Below are positions 13,183-33,216 of a stretch of 64,000 nucleotides of DNA, piece by piece. The first letter of the stretch is position 1, and each line of letters begins with the position of its first letter. Below the pieces are notes generated by a model that saw only the letters and a program-made list of their open reading frames with translations, searched no databases and was not told the origin of the DNA. The stretch is taken from the NCBI GenBank assembly GCA_007693945.1, contig RECP01000076.1, positions 36,687-100,686 on the forward strand, written 5' to 3'. Both the position numbers and the translations under genes were made by a program. The stretch is from Spirochaetaceae bacterium (lineage in GTDB: Bacteria > Spirochaetota > Spirochaetia > DSM-27196 > PWMO01).

Positions 13183-15363
13183 ATGGCACAGGAAGCACTT
13201 CGTCACCCCGGCCGCGTCGCCGGAGCGTGTTACCTGCTGGTGTCGCTGCTGGCGATCTACCTGACCATCTCCGGCCCGGCGCCGCTGGAAGCGCCCGGTC
13301 TCGGTGATTCGCTCTACTTTGTTCTGATTGGGCTGCACGTTGTCTGGGGCGTGCTGCTGCTGATGCCCCCGGCCTCCCGTGCGGCGGCCTTTGATTGCCG
13401 CCGCGTACGACGGTTCATACAGGTTCCCGAGGCGCTGCTGGCCTATGCGGTAGTACTGTTTCTGTTCGCGTGGGTTTTTGCGATCAACGCCAACATGGAT
13501 TACGTGCAGCGCTTCATCGAAATGGGTGGTGATCTGCGTCTGGCGCTCGATACCGAAACCGAGCGCGCGATCGCGGTACTGCGCTACGGACCGTTCCTGG
13601 TGCTCAATCTGGCGTTCTATCTGCTGCTGAGGGTCTTGCGGCCGCAGCTGGTACGCCGCGCGATTGCGCCCTCGCTGATCGCCGACCGGGATACTGTTGC
13701 GCGTACGGTCCGCTGGCCGGCGGTCTGGGGCCTGATGCTGGTGTTTCTGTCGGTCTTCCTCAGCGCCACGGCGTTGCCTTCGTTTCTCAATCTGAACGGC
13801 GTTGCGCTGCTGGGGTTTGTCTCACTGGCCCCGTTGCTGCTGGCGCTGCGCGGTTCGAGCTACGCACGCGGCGTCTTCTTTGCAGTCGTGTACGGAACGC
13901 TGACGACGCTGGTGGTGAACTTCTGGCTGGGAACGTTCAGTCTTGTTTCGCTGCAAATCAGTGTGATCATCTTTCTGTTCTTCTACCTGTTGTTCATTGT
14001 GCCCGCACTCTGGTTCTATCGGCGCGTCGCGGTGCTGCGGTTCACGGTGATTCCGCTGGCGTGGACCGGGTTTGAACTGCTGCGCTCATCGGGGTTTCTG
14101 GGTTACCCGTGGGCGCTGATCGCGCACTCGCAGTATGCCGTCCTGCCGCTCATCCAGATGGCGGCGTTTAGCGGTGTCTGGGGAATCAGCTTCGTGCTGC
14201 TGCTGGTCAACGCCGGCCTGGCGGAACTGCTCGCCGGAGTCGGCAGCGGCCGCCGTCCGCCCCTGATGCCGCTGCTCGGCGCGCTGGCTCTGCTGGGCAG
14301 TGCGATGTTCGTCGGTACGGCTGTTCTGGCGGCCGACGGACTGGATCAACGCCAACCCGACCGGACGGTACGCATTGCGCTGATCCAGCAGAACTCCGAC
14401 CCGCGCAAGCACGAGTATCGCCGGACGTTCACCTCCCTGACACGGCTTACCGATCAGTCACTGGCCTACAATCCCGACATCGTAGCGTGGTCGGAGACGG
14501 CGTTTGTGCCCAATATCCGCCGCTGGAGCCAGGAGGATCCGCGCTATCACAGTCTGGCACGGCTGGTGCAGGATTTTGTGCGCTATCAGCACTCAATTGC
14601 AACGTGGCTGGTAACCGGCAACGACGACTACGCGCGAGTCTTTGACGACGAGGGCAGTGAGGTGGAACGCCACCACTTCAACGCGGCGGTTCTGTTCTCT
14701 GATCGCGGAGAGCGGAAGCAGACGTACCACAAGATTCGCCTGGTTCCGTTCACCGAGCACTTCCCGTACGAGCACATATTCCCGCGCGTGCACGCGCTGC
14801 TGCAGGAGTATGACGTGCACTTCTGGGAGCCGGGCAGCGAACGCACCGTCTTCGAACACCCGATGTTCCGGTTCTCTACGCCAATCTGTTTTGAAGACGT
14901 CTTTCCTGACGAGGTGCGCCGGTTTGTGCTGGAGGGCACCGAGGTGATCCTCAATATCACAAACGATTACTGGTCGCTGACCGAAGTGCAGGCCAAACAG
15001 CACTTCGTCGGAGGAATGTTTCGTGCCGTCGAGAATCGGCGTCCGCTGGTTCGCTCGACCGCCAGTGGCCTGACCTCGCACGTTGACGAGTACGGCCGCA
15101 TTCTGGCAACCCTGCCATACTATGAAGAACTCTACCTGGTGGCCGATGTCGAGATTGCCGCTGATCAGCCGATCACCTTCTACACGCGTCACGGCGACTG
15201 GTTTCCGGTAACCGCGCTGGCGCTCCTGCCGATCATGCTGCTTATCAGCGACCGCAACCGCCTGGCAGCCCGGCTGAAACGGGCGCGCAACCCGGAGCCG
15301 CGCGGCCCGCGCCGCTGGCCGGCTATTCTGCGGGGGCGGCTTCGATCTCGACGCGACGATTGA
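13183..15363 (+). CDS. lnt: Apolipoprotein N-acyltransferase
   Basis: Multiple TM segments followed by a nitrilase domain (IALIQQNSDPRKHEY, SETAFVPN, TPICFEDVFPDEVR, NITNDYW). ATG at 13183 within ORF 12970..15363. Confidence 0.92.
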   Translation: MAQEALRHPGRVAGACYLLVSLLAIYLTISGPAPLEAPGLGDSLYFVLIGLHVVWGVLLLMPPASRAAAFDCRRVRRFIQVPEALLAYAVVLFLFAWVFAINANMDYVQRFIEMGGDLRLALDTETERAIAVLRYGPFLVLNLAFYLLLRVLRPQLVRRAIAPSLIADRDTVARTVRWPAVWGLMLVFLSVFLSATALPSFLNLNGVALLGFVSLAPLLLALRGSSYARGVFFAVVYGTLTTLVVNFWLGTFSLVSLQISVIIFLFFYLLFIVPALWFYRRVAVLRFTVIPLAWTGFELLRSSGFLGYPWALIAHSQYAVLPLIQMAAFSGVWGISFVLLLVNAGLAELLAGVGSGRRPPLMPLLGALALLGSAMFVGTAVLAADGLDQRQPDRTVRIALIQQNSDPRKHEYRRTFTSLTRLTDQSLAYNPDIVAWSETAFVPNIRRWSQEDPRYHSLARLVQDFVRYQHSIATWLVTGNDDYARVFDDEGSEVERHHFNAAVLFSDRGERKQTYHKIRLVPFTEHFPYEHIFPRVHALLQEYDVHFWEPGSERTVFEHPMFRFSTPICFEDVFPDEVRRFVLEGTEVILNITNDYWSLTEVQAKQHFVGGMFRAVENRRPLVRSTASGLTSHVDEYGRILATLPYYEELYLVADVEIAADQPITFYTRHGDWFPVTALALLPIMLLISDRNRLAARLKRARNPEPRGPRRWPAILRGRLRSRRDD

Positions 15364-27406: not shown

Positions 27407-27958
27407 ATGAGCAATAACGAGATTGTAGCGGGTTTCGACGAAGAAAAGGACGAGAGCCTCAAGATACGTCTCCAGAAAGTAGACTCTGTCGAAGGCTGTC
27501 TCATTATGTATCTCACCGGGTACATCGACACGTACAATTCGAACTTCTTCCAGAAGCGGGTCACGCGCGCGGTAGAGTCCGGCTTCACGCGGTTGATCTT
27601 TCACTGTGGTGGTCTGAACTACGTATCGAGTACCGGAATCGGGTCGTTTACGGCCTTTCTGAAGGCGGTCAAGCCGCGCGGCGGTGACCTCGTGTTGCTC
27701 GAGATACAGCCCAAAGTCTATGAGGTCTTCCAGCTGCTCGGGTTTTCGCAGTTCTTCAACATCAAGGACAACCTCGACGAAGCGGTCGATTTCTTCAAGA
27801 AGGGCGGAACCAAGGTCGAGTCCGATGTCTTTCCCAAGATCTTCAAGTGTCCAATCTGTTCCAAGAAGCTCAAAGCCACGCGGGCAGGCAGATTCCGCTG
27901 TTCCGAGTGCAAGACGATTCTGGCAATCGACAACTCGGGGCAGGTCTTCCTGGGATAA
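27407..27958 (+). CDS. STAS domain protein (anti-sigma factor antagonist-like) with C-terminal zinc ribbon
   Basis: GGLNYVSSTGIGSFTAFLK (phospho-Ser loop); CPICSKK...CSECK at C-terminus. Confidence 0.88.
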   Translation: MSNNEIVAGFDEEKDESLKIRLQKVDSVEGCLIMYLTGYIDTYNSNFFQKRVTRAVESGFTRLIFHCGGLNYVSSTGIGSFTAFLKAVKPRGGDLVLLEIQPKVYEVFQLLGFSQFFNIKDNLDEAVDFFKKGGTKVESDVFPKIFKCPICSKKLKATRAGRFRCSECKTILAIDNSGQVFLG

Positions 27959-27964
27959 GTATCC

Positions 27965-28786
27965 GTGGGATTGTTTGATCGCTTTCGTCGTCTGATCAAA
28001 TCCAATATCAACGATATGATCAGCAAGGCTGAAAACCCCGAGAAGATGCTGAATCAGCTGATCTCGGATATGAGCCAGCAGCTGATGGACGCCAAGAAGA
28101 GCGTCGCGTCGGCAATCGCCGACGAGAAGAAGCTCAAACGCCACATAGACGAAACGCGCGAGCATGCCACGGAGTGGGAGCGCAAGGCGATGCTGGCGCT
28201 CAAGCGTGAGCGCGAAGACCTGGCGCGACAGGCGTTGGCGCAGAAGCAGGAGTACGAAAAGCTCGCCGGCGAGTACGAACAGCAATGGAACTCCCAGCGC
28301 GACGCGGTCGAGCGGCTCAGGCTCTCGCTGCGCGGACTGGATCAGAAGATTGAAGAGGCTCAGCGCAAACGCAATATGCTGATTGCGCGGGCCAAGCGTG
28401 CTGAAGCCCAACGCAAGATGCAGGAGACACTCGGCGGACTGTCGGATACTTCGGCTTTTGAAGCGTTCGAGAAGATGTCCGCCAGGATGGACCAGATCGA
28501 GGCCGAGAACGAGGCCCTGGAAGAGATCGAAGGCAAGATTCAGGATGACTCGCTGGAGCGGGAGTTTGCCAGTCTGGAAAGCTCTTCGGGGGCCTCGGAC
28601 AAGCTGCTGGATGCGCTGCGTGAGAAGATGGCCCTGGAGGATCAGAGCGGGCAGGCCTCGACCGATGCACGGGAGACGCCGGATTCGACTGCGCCGCCGG
28701 CCGCTTCGGCTGCCTCAGAAGACATCGATGAGACGCTCGAAACGCTGAAGCAGAAGCTCAAGAACGAATCATCCGGTGAAGCCTGA
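27965..28786 (+). CDS. pspA: Phage shock protein A / IM30 family protein
   Basis: GLFDRFRRLIKSNINDMISKAENPEKMLNQLISDM; long coiled coil. Confidence 0.95.
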   Translation: MGLFDRFRRLIKSNINDMISKAENPEKMLNQLISDMSQQLMDAKKSVASAIADEKKLKRHIDETREHATEWERKAMLALKREREDLARQALAQKQEYEKLAGEYEQQWNSQRDAVERLRLSLRGLDQKIEEAQRKRNMLIARAKRAEAQRKMQETLGGLSDTSAFEAFEKMSARMDQIEAENEALEEIEGKIQDDSLEREFASLESSSGASDKLLDALREKMALEDQSGQASTDARETPDSTAPPAASAASEDIDETLETLKQKLKNESSGEA

Positions 28787-29435
28787 ACGGATCACCGTTC
28801 ACTGCATCGCGGTCCCCGCTGATCTTGCTGATCAGATTCGCCTCCACGTCTTGAACATGCATGAGTGGATACTCTCGTGGTCCGGGGGCGTTGCCGACCT
28901 GCCGGGCTGCGATGCAATAGTGCTGCCGGCCGCTCTGCTGCCGGATCTGCGGATATCGCAGCCCGGGGCCATCCTCGGCGCGCAGGTGCTCGCCTTCGGT
29001 CCGGCCGAAATGCTGCCGATCGCCTTGATGCGCGGTGCCGACGAATTCCTGCGGACTCCCTGGGCTGCCGCGGAGCTGTTCGCCCGCCTCAGGCACTGCC
29101 TGCTGACGGCTACCCGCGCGTCGCGGCGCCTTGGCCTGTCGCTGCAACCCGGCGCGGTATCGAGTGCGGCGACATCGGTCGCACTCTCTGGTGCCGAGTA
29201 CCGCATTCTGCAACTGCTGCTGCGTTTTGCCGGGGAGGTTGTGGATCGACAGGCGTTCTGTTTCGCGCTCTGGGGCCGTTTCCTACCGCAATCGCGCGCC
29301 GTTGACGTGCACATCTCCTCCTTACGCCGCAAGTTGGCCCAACTGGCGTCCGGCACGTCGTCCTGGACCATTCAGACCGTCAGAGGCCAAGGCTATGTCT
29401 TCATCGGGCATCAGTCCCCTGTGGACAATCTGTGA
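28776..29435 (+). CDS. OmpR/PhoB-type winged-helix protein with degenerate receiver domain
   Basis: Overlaps pspA; C-terminus LSGAEYRILQLLLRFAGEVVDRQAF...VDVHISSLRRKL...TVRGQGYVF; N-terminal receiver-like fold lacks the phospho-Asp. Confidence 0.85.
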   Translation: MKPERITVHCIAVPADLADQIRLHVLNMHEWILSWSGGVADLPGCDAIVLPAALLPDLRISQPGAILGAQVLAFGPAEMLPIALMRGADEFLRTPWAAAELFARLRHCLLTATRASRRLGLSLQPGAVSSAATSVALSGAEYRILQLLLRFAGEVVDRQAFCFALWGRFLPQSRAVDVHISSLRRKLAQLASGTSSWTIQTVRGQGYVFIGHQSPVDNL

Positions 29436-29651
29436 ATAAAATCGACTCGAAGCAAAACGGCTACACAGATTTTTAGGCCTAACCTGAACATTCGGTCGAC
29501 TTCTTTTCGGATTCGACGTCAAGATCTTTTAAATAGCTATAACAAAGTGAATTAAACCGTGCCAAAACGTAATCTGGCTCGAATCGGCCATGCGGCCGTC
29601 GATTAAATCATACAACTGCCGGTCTGTAGCCTGTGGGTAACCTGTTGAAAA
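29420..29651. promoter_or_regulatory. AT-rich region with four DnaA-box-like 9-mers (candidate oriC-like or DnaA-binding locus)
   Basis: TGTGGACAA 29420-29428, TGTGAATAA 29431-29439, TGTGGGTAA 29632-29640, TGTTGAAAA 29643-29651, all same orientation; AT-rich stretch between. Confidence 0.45.
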
Positions 29652-29691: not shown

Positions 29692-30744
29692 TTGCATTGC
29701 GGGCATGCGCGTGATAGGATTCTCCTCAGCGTGAAAACCGGTTTGACTGTTCTCCTTCTGTTTCTCGGTGCCTTTCTGGCGCTGGCGCTCCTCATCAGCG
29801 GGGTGCACGTGCTGGTTCTGTGGGGAATCTCATTTGACGAGGCGTCTTCAGGGCGCGTCGGCGCCGATCTGGTGGTGTCGATTTTGCGCGAAATGCGGGC
29901 CACGCTGCTGGTGGCCGCCGTTCTGGCAACTCTCGGGGTTCTGTTTCGTTGTCTGCGTCTTGACGGCAGGCCGACCGGCGCCTTGCTGCTGCTGTGGCTC
30001 TGTGCGGCCGGCGCAATCTATGGCGGTCTGCTGGTCAGTGATGTTCTGCGCCGGCAACTGTCGCCGGTCGCGGAGCCGGTGCGGGCTCCGGCAACCGGCA
30101 CACTGCTGCGATCGCCGCAAACCGCGATCTATATCGGTCAGCGGGAGAACAACGAGCTGCATGGGGTGCTGCTGTGGCGCTCGCCGGCCGCATCCGACGC
30201 TGAAGACAACGCCGTAACCGGCGCCCAAGCCGGTTTCAGCGTTCATCCGCTGGCACACTACCGCCGGGAATCCGAATTGATAGAGCTGCAAAGCAACGGC
30301 TTCAGGGTCGCGCTGCGCGACGTGCAGAACGGCCACTGGCAGCTCTTTGAGCCTCCGGCGGTGCTTGAGCGGCTGAACGAGGACGTGGCGCGCACTGCCG
30401 ACCGGCTGAGCTTCATCGTGCGGTCCGACCGGATGGCCGGTGCGCTGACGGTAGTGGCGCTGGCCTTGATCGTGACGATGTCGTGGGTCATCGTCCGCCT
30501 GACCCGCTGGCCGCTGTTGAACGTTGTCATGGCAATCGGCTGGATTCGCCTGCTCTTTTCCGTATTGCCGTTTGCGCTCGATTCTGAACTGGGACAGCCG
30601 CTGCAGAGACTGCTTCCGTCAGCTGCCGCGCTGTCGCACTATCTCCACCCGCTGATTCTGGCAGCGGTCGCTCTGGTGCTGGTCATCGTAAACGTCGTCA
30701 TGCCGTCCTTCAGCCACTGGAAGAGGGAAGTCAGTGATGGATAG
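29692..30744 (+). CDS. Integral membrane protein of unknown function
   Basis: Multiple TM segments; first gene of a three-gene same-strand run. True start may be GTG at 29731. Confidence 0.7.
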   Translation: MHCGHARDRILLSVKTGLTVLLLFLGAFLALALLISGVHVLVLWGISFDEASSGRVGADLVVSILREMRATLLVAAVLATLGVLFRCLRLDGRPTGALLLLWLCAAGAIYGGLLVSDVLRRQLSPVAEPVRAPATGTLLRSPQTAIYIGQRENNELHGVLLWRSPAASDAEDNAVTGAQAGFSVHPLAHYRRESELIELQSNGFRVALRDVQNGHWQLFEPPAVLERLNEDVARTADRLSFIVRSDRMAGALTVVALALIVTMSWVIVRLTRWPLLNVVMAIGWIRLLFSVLPFALDSELGQPLQRLLPSAAALSHYLHPLILAAVALVLVIVNVVMPSFSHWKREVSDG

Positions 30745-32485
30745 ACAGGGCCGAACGGCGATCATCGTGCTGACGCTTGTCTACCTGATCGCGTTTGCGG
30801 TTCTGGTGGCCTACTCAATGTTCGTCTTTCCCGGGCGGATTGTTCTGCCGGCGCTTCAGACGGGCTGGATAGTATGGAACAGCGTTGCGCTGTTCGTTGA
30901 GCTGCTGCCCACAACGCACCTGACGGCCGTGTTGCTGCTCTATTCACTGTTCGCCGGGATCGGGCCGGTTGTGCGGCTTGCCGATCGGGCTCTGATCCGG
31001 ACGCTGAAGGGACCGCTGGTGTTGTTCACGCTGCTTGCGATGCTGTTCGCCGTTGCGGTGGGAATCATCCAGCCCTGGGCGGCCGGTCGACGCGACGGCT
31101 ACGTCTACCAGAGCGAGTTTGCGCGGGCGCTGCTGCAGCAGGCTGAGCAGCTCGAGCGTTCCGCAGAATACCAGCGCGCAGCGCTGGACTACGCGCTCTA
31201 CCTGAATATTGACCCCCATAATCTCGATGTGCGCGCCAGGCTCGACGAGGCGCGTGCTCGGGCTGAGGCGCGCGAGCATCAACAGCCTGCGGAGCGCGAA
31301 ACTGTCTTTCAGACTGCCGCGCGTCGGGAAGGGCCGGATGCCACCGCGCTTGCCAATCGGGCGGCATCGGCTCTCCAGCGTGAAGACTTCTTCTCGGCCC
31401 ACTACTACGCCCGTTTGGCGCTGGCACTCGATCCGGGGCGTGAAGAGGCGCGTCTGACACTCGCAAACGCCAACCAGGGGATGCGCTCGTTTGGACAGAC
31501 GCTCGCGGAAATTGATGACCAGCGGCGCTACGCACGCAAGCGCGACGCCTACGAGCTGCTCAGCAGCGATCAGAGTCAGGCGGTGATCCAGGCCTATTAC
31601 GCCTTCGCCGACCTTCGTTCAGACTACCCCGATGACCCCGACGTCGAGCGCTACTATCCGCTGGCGCTCGAGGCCGTTCAGCGTGTTTCGTTCTTTCTGG
31701 ATGAGATAGCGCGCGCCGAGGCGTTTCCGACGCGCTACAACCTGACTTTCCGCAATGGGGGGCCGCACGACGGTGTCCGCGAATTCGTGCACATTGACCG
31801 CTTGATCATGGCGTCCGGCGGGCGCTATGCGTTGGGCATTGAGGCAATCAGCTACGACAGCCACGGCGAGCCGGGCTATCACCTGCGCGCCGAGTACGGC
31901 AAAATAGAGCAGCGCGACAGTTACGACGGCGTCTCTTCGGCGTTTCTCAACATGCGAACGGTTGATTCCGCTGAGCGAACCGTCAGCCAGCCGCGCTACC
32001 TTGCCGGCAAACGTGACCCGAGCGTGGCTCACGTGCTCGAGCTGCGCGCACCGCTGAGCCGCCTCGAATTGGTGGCCGCCGCCGATGGGGGGGTGTCAAA
32101 CGTCGGGCTGCCCGATCTGCTGCACAAGGCGCGGTTGTTTCCCGCGTTCGGCTTTGCCGTTGAGCCGGTCTACGTGGAGATCGGGATGCGCCTTCTGCTG
32201 CCGTTCAGCCTGCTGGTGTTTTCGTTGTTCGGCATAACGCTGGGAATCCGGTGGCGCAGCCGTTATCTGCGGCGCATCACGCTGCTCGGCATCCCGGCGC
32301 TGGTATTGGTGCCCCTGGTAGTGCACCACCTGATCCTGCTCTACTTCTACTTCTTTCGCGTGCTGCTGGGGTTTCTGGTGCTCTCGGCCGGCGTTGTCGT
32401 GGCGGCTGTGGTGCTGATCGGCGTCCAGGCCCTGCTGCTGACGTGGGCGCTGTTCAGCGTGGCGGCGCGCATGAACGAATCATGA
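30734..32485 (+). CDS. Membrane protein with TPR-like region, unknown function
   Basis: TM segments at both ends; YQRAALDYALYLNIDPHNLDVRARLDEA TPR-like; overlaps both neighbours. Confidence 0.75.
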   Translation: MMDRQGRTAIIVLTLVYLIAFAVLVAYSMFVFPGRIVLPALQTGWIVWNSVALFVELLPTTHLTAVLLLYSLFAGIGPVVRLADRALIRTLKGPLVLFTLLAMLFAVAVGIIQPWAAGRRDGYVYQSEFARALLQQAEQLERSAEYQRAALDYALYLNIDPHNLDVRARLDEARARAEAREHQQPAERETVFQTAARREGPDATALANRAASALQREDFFSAHYYARLALALDPGREEARLTLANANQGMRSFGQTLAEIDDQRRYARKRDAYELLSSDQSQAVIQAYYAFADLRSDYPDDPDVERYYPLALEAVQRVSFFLDEIARAEAFPTRYNLTFRNGGPHDGVREFVHIDRLIMASGGRYALGIEAISYDSHGEPGYHLRAEYGKIEQRDSYDGVSSAFLNMRTVDSAERTVSQPRYLAGKRDPSVAHVLELRAPLSRLELVAAADGGVSNVGLPDLLHKARLFPAFGFAVEPVYVEIGMRLLLPFSLLVFSLFGITLGIRWRSRYLRRITLLGIPALVLVPLVVHHLILLYFYFFRVLLGFLVLSAGVVVAAVVLIGVQALLLTWALFSVAARMNES

Positions 32486-33216
32486 GGCGGTTGCCGCTCG
32501 GTACGCTGTTGGGCGGTCTTATTGGTCTTCCGGCGGGCGTATTTGGCGTCGGATTCGGCCTGCTGGTTGGAACGCTGGTCGACCAGGCGGTACAGCGGGC
32601 GCGCGAGCGGCGGTCGCTGACGCGGCTGGTGGAACATCCGCTGCAAGACAGCGCGCTGCAGGCGCTGCCGGTGGAAACGGCCATCGTTGTCCTCAGCTTT
32701 GTGCTCGATGGTGAGCTGTCCAGCGATCGACAGGCGCTGCTCCTGCAGCGCTTGAGCGAACTCTACCAGCCGTCGAGCCGTCGCGCTGCCGAGCTGGCGC
32801 GGGTGGCCGGCGAAGGAGCTTCTCTGGCGCTGCACGCCGACAGAGCCGGGCTTACCGAGTTCCTGCGACGCAAACTGCCGCTGCACGAGCGTGAAGCCGT
32901 CGTTGATCTGCTGCTGGCCGCCGGTGTCGAGCCCGTCCGGGTGCGGCGGACCGCGGAACGCTGGGATATTCCCGCTGAGCGCTATCGGTTGCTGCGTGAG
33001 CCCTACCGGGTGCTCGATCCTCAGGCCTGCGCGCTGCTGGGTGTCTCGCCGGCAGCCGGACCGGAGGAGGTCAAGCGGGTCTACCGGGCGCTGGCGGTAC
33101 AGTTCCACCCCGATGCGGCCGGCGGCCTGGATGAGGCACAGCGCAGGCAGGCCGAGCAAGCCTACCTGAGGGTGCAGGCGGCGTATCACACCATCATGCG
33201 CGAGTTCGAAAACTGA
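32482..33216 (+). CDS. DjlA-like protein (Gly-rich TM segment, TerB-like middle, C-terminal J domain)
   Basis: ATGA overlap with previous gene; LGTLLGGLIGLPAGVFGVGFGLLVGTLVD; ALLGVSPAAGPEEVKRVYRALAVQFHPD. Confidence 0.8.
   Translation: MRRLPLGTLLGGLIGLPAGVFGVGFGLLVGTLVDQAVQRARERRSLTRLVEHPLQDSALQALPVETAIVVLSFVLDGELSSDRQALLLQRLSELYQPSSRRAAELARVAGEGASLALHADRAGLTEFLRRKLPLHEREAVVDLLLAAGVEPVRVRRTAERWDIPAERYRLLREPYRVLDPQACALLGVSPAAGPEEVKRVYRALAVQFHPDAAGGLDEAQRRQAEQAYLRVQAAYHTIMREFEN

Follow-up and report, generated by a model that had tools for sequence, protein, structure and literature searches.

What are four DnaA-box-like words doing in an AT-rich gap far from any dnaA gene? The window, a 64,000-nucleotide stretch of a Spirochaetaceae contig analysed as a whole, carries such a quartet on the minus strand at positions 29420–29651, for which a sequence-only reading had offered three answers: a replication origin displaced from dnaA, a DnaA-titration site, or a DnaA-controlled promoter for the operon that follows. 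The dnaA gene does sit elsewhere, on contig C71. Re-reading the sequence and scanning it for boxes also bear out the positions of the four candidate 9-mers, their single orientation and their 11-bp pitch. Box 1 (TTGTCCACA, 29420–29428) lies within the 3′ end of a winged-helix (wHTH) regulator gene, and box 2 (TTATTCACA, 29431–29439) overlaps the stop codon of that gene and is, as claimed, the sole perfect TTATNCACA of the quartet. Box 3 (TTACCCACA, 29632–29640) and box 4 (TTTTCAACA, 29643–29651), like box 1, each carry one mismatch to TTWTNCACA. Along the minus strand, pair 1 (29420–29439) reads TTATTCACA-GA-TTGTCCACA, as a whole TTATTCACAGATTGTCCACA, and pair 2 (29632–29651) reads TTTTCAACA-GG-TTACCCACA, as a whole TTTTCAACAGGTTACCCACA. 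Only pair 1 overlaps a gene end, the quartet being otherwise non-coding.

Such pairs are rare in this organism. When the whole 3.73 Mb genome was searched with the paired-box pattern TTWTNCACANNTTWTNCACA, pair 1 was the only match at one mismatch, and pair 2 was one of three at two mismatches; a base-composition model expects 0.03 and 0.77 places, respectively. The other two matches at two mismatches fall in the dnaA–dnaN gap and downstream of khpB, both on contig C71, and the two pairs of the quartet are among the four best paired-box matches of the genome. No second 400-bp stretch with four boxes was found in the 163 kb of contigs C4 and C71.

All annotated genes around the quartet lie on the plus strand. 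Its most constant neighbour, identified by Pfam and synteny, is a STAS-domain protein with a C-terminal zinc ribbon (27407–27958), which shares 76–90% identity across spirochaete families (alignment A1) and 96–99% within the genus, far above the neighbouring proteins. It is followed by a PspA/IM30 family protein (27965–28786, Pfam) and by the wHTH regulator (28776–29435, Pfam and ORF), whose N-terminal part looks on visual inspection like a degenerate receiver domain, the one Pfam match being Trans_reg_C. Beyond the quartet, the downstream operon opens with a membrane protein (29731–30744, ORF; the GTG start at 29731 is preferred, and the frame can be extended to a TTG at 29692) and continues with a large membrane protein termed TPR583 (30734–32485, ORF, no Pfam match) and a DnaJ-domain protein (32251–33216, Pfam), whose true start lies downstream of 32251. 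At the quartet itself, no Rfam match to a regulatory RNA was found, and its one weak terminator-like hairpin is no better than those of shuffled sequence.

The sequence-only reading had held that its proposal would fall if a clear GC-skew minimum and a box cluster lay next to dnaA elsewhere and these boxes were not conserved in close relatives. A cluster next to dnaA does exist, whereas the boxes proved strongly conserved: among relatives aligned on pspA, each of the 26 with sufficient flanking sequence, a number that includes this genome, has same-strand box-like words at the two positions, typically 640–930 bp after pspA. A position-free search recovered at least one pair at no more than one mismatch in 56 of 61 related genomes, and a reversed control pattern gave very few matches. 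The gene order common to relatives is NtrC-like, x, SDR, STAS, PspA, wHTH, quartet, membrane protein, TPR583, DnaJ and MurA, with the membrane-protein homologue starting shortly after the quartet in most of them. The quartet outlasts several of these neighbours. One genome (G007) has lost the wHTH gene and carries the boxes directly after pspA, another (G013) has lost both pspA and the wHTH gene, and in four loci (L249, L251, L255, L269) the downstream operon is replaced by murA.

A broader scan of named genomes by STAS alignment yielded 80 loci, 70 of them with enough downstream sequence. The quartet is present on the antisense strand in 47 of these 70 loci of Spirochaetia and on the other strand in five, compared with none in the upstream flanks of 51 STAS loci and none in shuffled sequence; the STAS loci share ancestry, and their counts should not be read as independent events. 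Among the carriers are Treponema MAGs, Gracilinema caldarium and Breznakiella homolactica. In five Treponema MAG loci (L275, L292, L295, L296, L300), an overlapping run of opposite-strand boxes replaces the quartet in about the same slot. The closed Spirochaeta thermophila-type genome (G052) retains the STAS–PspA–wHTH block and lacks the quartet. In closed genomes the quartet lies roughly 10–473 kb from dnaA, and in closed relatives it falls on the origin side of the chromosome.

The spacer between the pairs (29440–29631) is 56% AT, and at its midpoint lies an AT-rich core (29527–29556, TTTTAAATAGCTATAACAAAGTGAATTAAA) of 83% AT, a proposed bend or loop apex. Taken as 36 bp, this core is the most AT-rich place of its length in the 100-kb contig, consistent with the unusual AT-richness first remarked upon. 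In all 49 quartets the spacer exceeds its flanks in AT content. Its most AT-rich 30-mer falls in the middle third in 39 of them, against 16 ± 3 expected from shuffles. What is conserved across quartets is the place and composition of the core, not its sequence. The suggested likeness to the E. coli 13-mer unwinding repeats is weak, as the word occurs in a single copy that is not conserved in congeners, and an E. coli-type 13-mer array was rejected on these grounds. Lying midway between two pairs of like orientation, the core fits the apex of a loop better than it fits an unwinding element placed next to an array of boxes, and we infer from its placement that it may serve as the former. The pairs are mostly 197–244 bp apart, head-to-tail on one strand, and the helical phasing of their separations is suggestive over all 48 values, with p about 0.08 on distinct values. 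No interior motif is universal across the spacers, and a CTAYACAGRTTTT-like word occurs in 9 of 49 (0.6 expected from shuffles). Within the genus, conserved spacer blocks at 29460–29620 (CTACACA..TTTTTAGG, TTCGGTCGACTTCTTT, AATTAAACCGTGCC) are not DnaA boxes.

Of the three answers, the titration site is the best supported, by the deep conservation, the same-direction boxes and the origin-side position. We consider it probable that the quartet is a conserved extra-origin locus at which DnaA binds, acting as a looped DnaA sink or inactivator that is duplicated early in replication. Firstly, DnaA would bind each 11-bp-pitch pair cooperatively and head-to-tail. The AT-rich centre would let the spacer bend, probably with HU (HU-family proteins are encoded in the genome), so that the two pairs, loaded with DnaA and separated by about 20 helical turns, could meet in a loop. 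Because an origin-side locus doubles soon after initiation, the extra copy would capture DnaA, which may there undergo promoted ATP hydrolysis as at E. coli datA. Finally, this capture would restrain re-initiation, and the chromosome would be copied once per cycle. Several observations count against a sink: three of the four boxes are imperfect in this species, in most genomes the membrane-protein operon starts right beside the quartet, an arrangement for which a pure titration site has no need, and G052 has the gene block alone.

The main and serious rival to a sink is a DnaA-regulated promoter, in which the quartet would repress or time the membrane protein–TPR583–DnaJ operon (or pspA/wHTH) with no role in initiation. 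Its weight comes from gene positions: at 35 of 47 loci a co-directional gene follows, with its start no more than 250 bp from the boxes and often at 30–100 bp. Congeners keep the stretch just before the start codon, and Borrelia DnaA binds upstream of replication genes and has been proposed as a regulator (PMC9879097). A gene start is usually near, yet the same gene is not always there: the quartet persists at loci that have the 3′ end of murA in place of the operon, and about 1.4–1.7 kb separate it from the membrane-protein homologue in three genomes (G010, G017, G007). Moreover, pair 1 falls within the preceding gene or at its end, about 200 bp from pair 2, and a simple scan of the quartet gave no sigma-70-like promoter. 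On balance, regulation of the operon as the only role is rather unlikely, and DnaA at the quartet may act in both ways.

An origin displaced from dnaA, or a second and dormant one, would account for a box cluster flanking an AT-rich core, an origin-like layout, in a genus whose dnaA has no upstream module or a reduced one. GC skew argues strongly against it. Skew was measured in four closed quartet carriers, G242, G175, G169 and Breznakiella being left out. In two carriers (G011, G007), the cumulative minimum falls within about 30 kb of dnaA, whereas the quartet is 113 and 74 kb from that gene; in two Treponema-type carriers (G142, G254), both flanks of the quartet have positive skew, and the change of sign comes at dnaA, at distances of 473 and 389 kb. 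In these relatives, the quartet is thus origin-proximal and is not the origin. In the contig of the window, skew likewise stays positive from one side of the quartet to the other. The skew near dnaA is weak and uninformative in this fragmented genome and does not allow its own origin to be located. The AT core, moreover, is central, unconserved in sequence and without a 13-mer array. Taken together, an origin at the quartet is very improbable. That the boxes are chance resemblances in a gap between genes, to which their three imperfect members and the AT-richness of the gap might point, is more improbable still and is refuted by the comparative data. The genome-wide rank of the pairs, their conservation in relatives and the excess over shuffles in STAS loci all oppose it.

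The likely origin region has modules of its own. This genome carries box clusters at dnaA–dnaN and after khpB; in other families one two-pair module precedes dnaA and a second follows khpB, and two genomes (G022, G039) hold three two-pair modules each. The khpB–gcvH gap of this genome (G000, contig C71:43605–44521; L009, about 13600–14530) contains two perfect TTATCCACA boxes, and many relatives have a full two-pair module there. In G052, a perfect pair lies on each side of the record start, just upstream of dnaA, the two being 213 bp apart (L126). The khpB–gcvH module, together with the second module upstream of dnaA in several families, suggests a split origin. The modules in the gyrB–dnaA and khpB–gcvH gaps resemble the quartet in having two pairs of the same pitch about 150–265 bp apart. 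They differ in showing only a mild central rise in AT, whereas the core of the quartet is stronger; the quartet also lies 74–473 kb away in the four skew-tested relatives, without a skew turn.

E. coli datA combines same-direction boxes, bending between boxes and a position near oriC that is duplicated early (PMC5742627), and the quartet resembles it in being non-coding, about 250 bp long, with one box direction, a candidate bend site between the boxes and an origin-side location. It differs in consisting of two 2-bp-spaced pairs, where datA has single spaced boxes, in its gene neighbours, and in a spacer where the E. coli IHF consensus, the site that lies between the boxes of a strict datA, is not enriched. 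In B. subtilis and Streptomyces coelicolor, extra-origin DnaA-box clusters reportedly hold back untimely initiation (PMC5295017, PMC5742627). The quartet shares with the oriC-proximal clusters of B. subtilis and the analogous cluster of S. coelicolor the clustering of boxes outside the origin; B. subtilis, however, has six clusters, whereas the quartet is one locus with a fixed two-pair geometry, a central AT core and the same synteny class-wide. The E. coli DARS1 and DARS2 loci are also extra-origin DnaA-box loci, and DARS depends on head-to-head boxes I/II (PMC5742627). DARS membership was rejected, as the four boxes of the quartet are co-directional and the head-to-head core is absent; the locus is also origin-side in closed relatives.

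A more specific proposal, which we advance tentatively and hold to be somewhat doubtful, is that the quartet plays the part of datA throughout this spirochaete class: a loop bridged by DnaA and bent by HU, with the two-pair module of the origin region as its building block, which would sequester or inactivate DnaA after each initiation and would have kept its neighbourhood since the common ancestor of Treponema and Spirochaetales.

Extra-origin DnaA loci are known from few model bacteria. A literature search of incomplete coverage, and so weak evidence of absence, returned no paper that links this spirochaete gene neighbourhood to DnaA boxes. An extra-origin DnaA-box locus is as a kind already known; what appears new is the geometry of the quartet and its synteny across the class. 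The quartet was found by sequence alone, in a group whose replication control has hardly been studied, and it indicates that equating DnaA-box clusters with the origin can mislead origin searches in spirochaetes. With a fixed geometry and synteny across the class and carriers that can be cultured, it makes the generality and antiquity of DnaA-titration sites directly testable.
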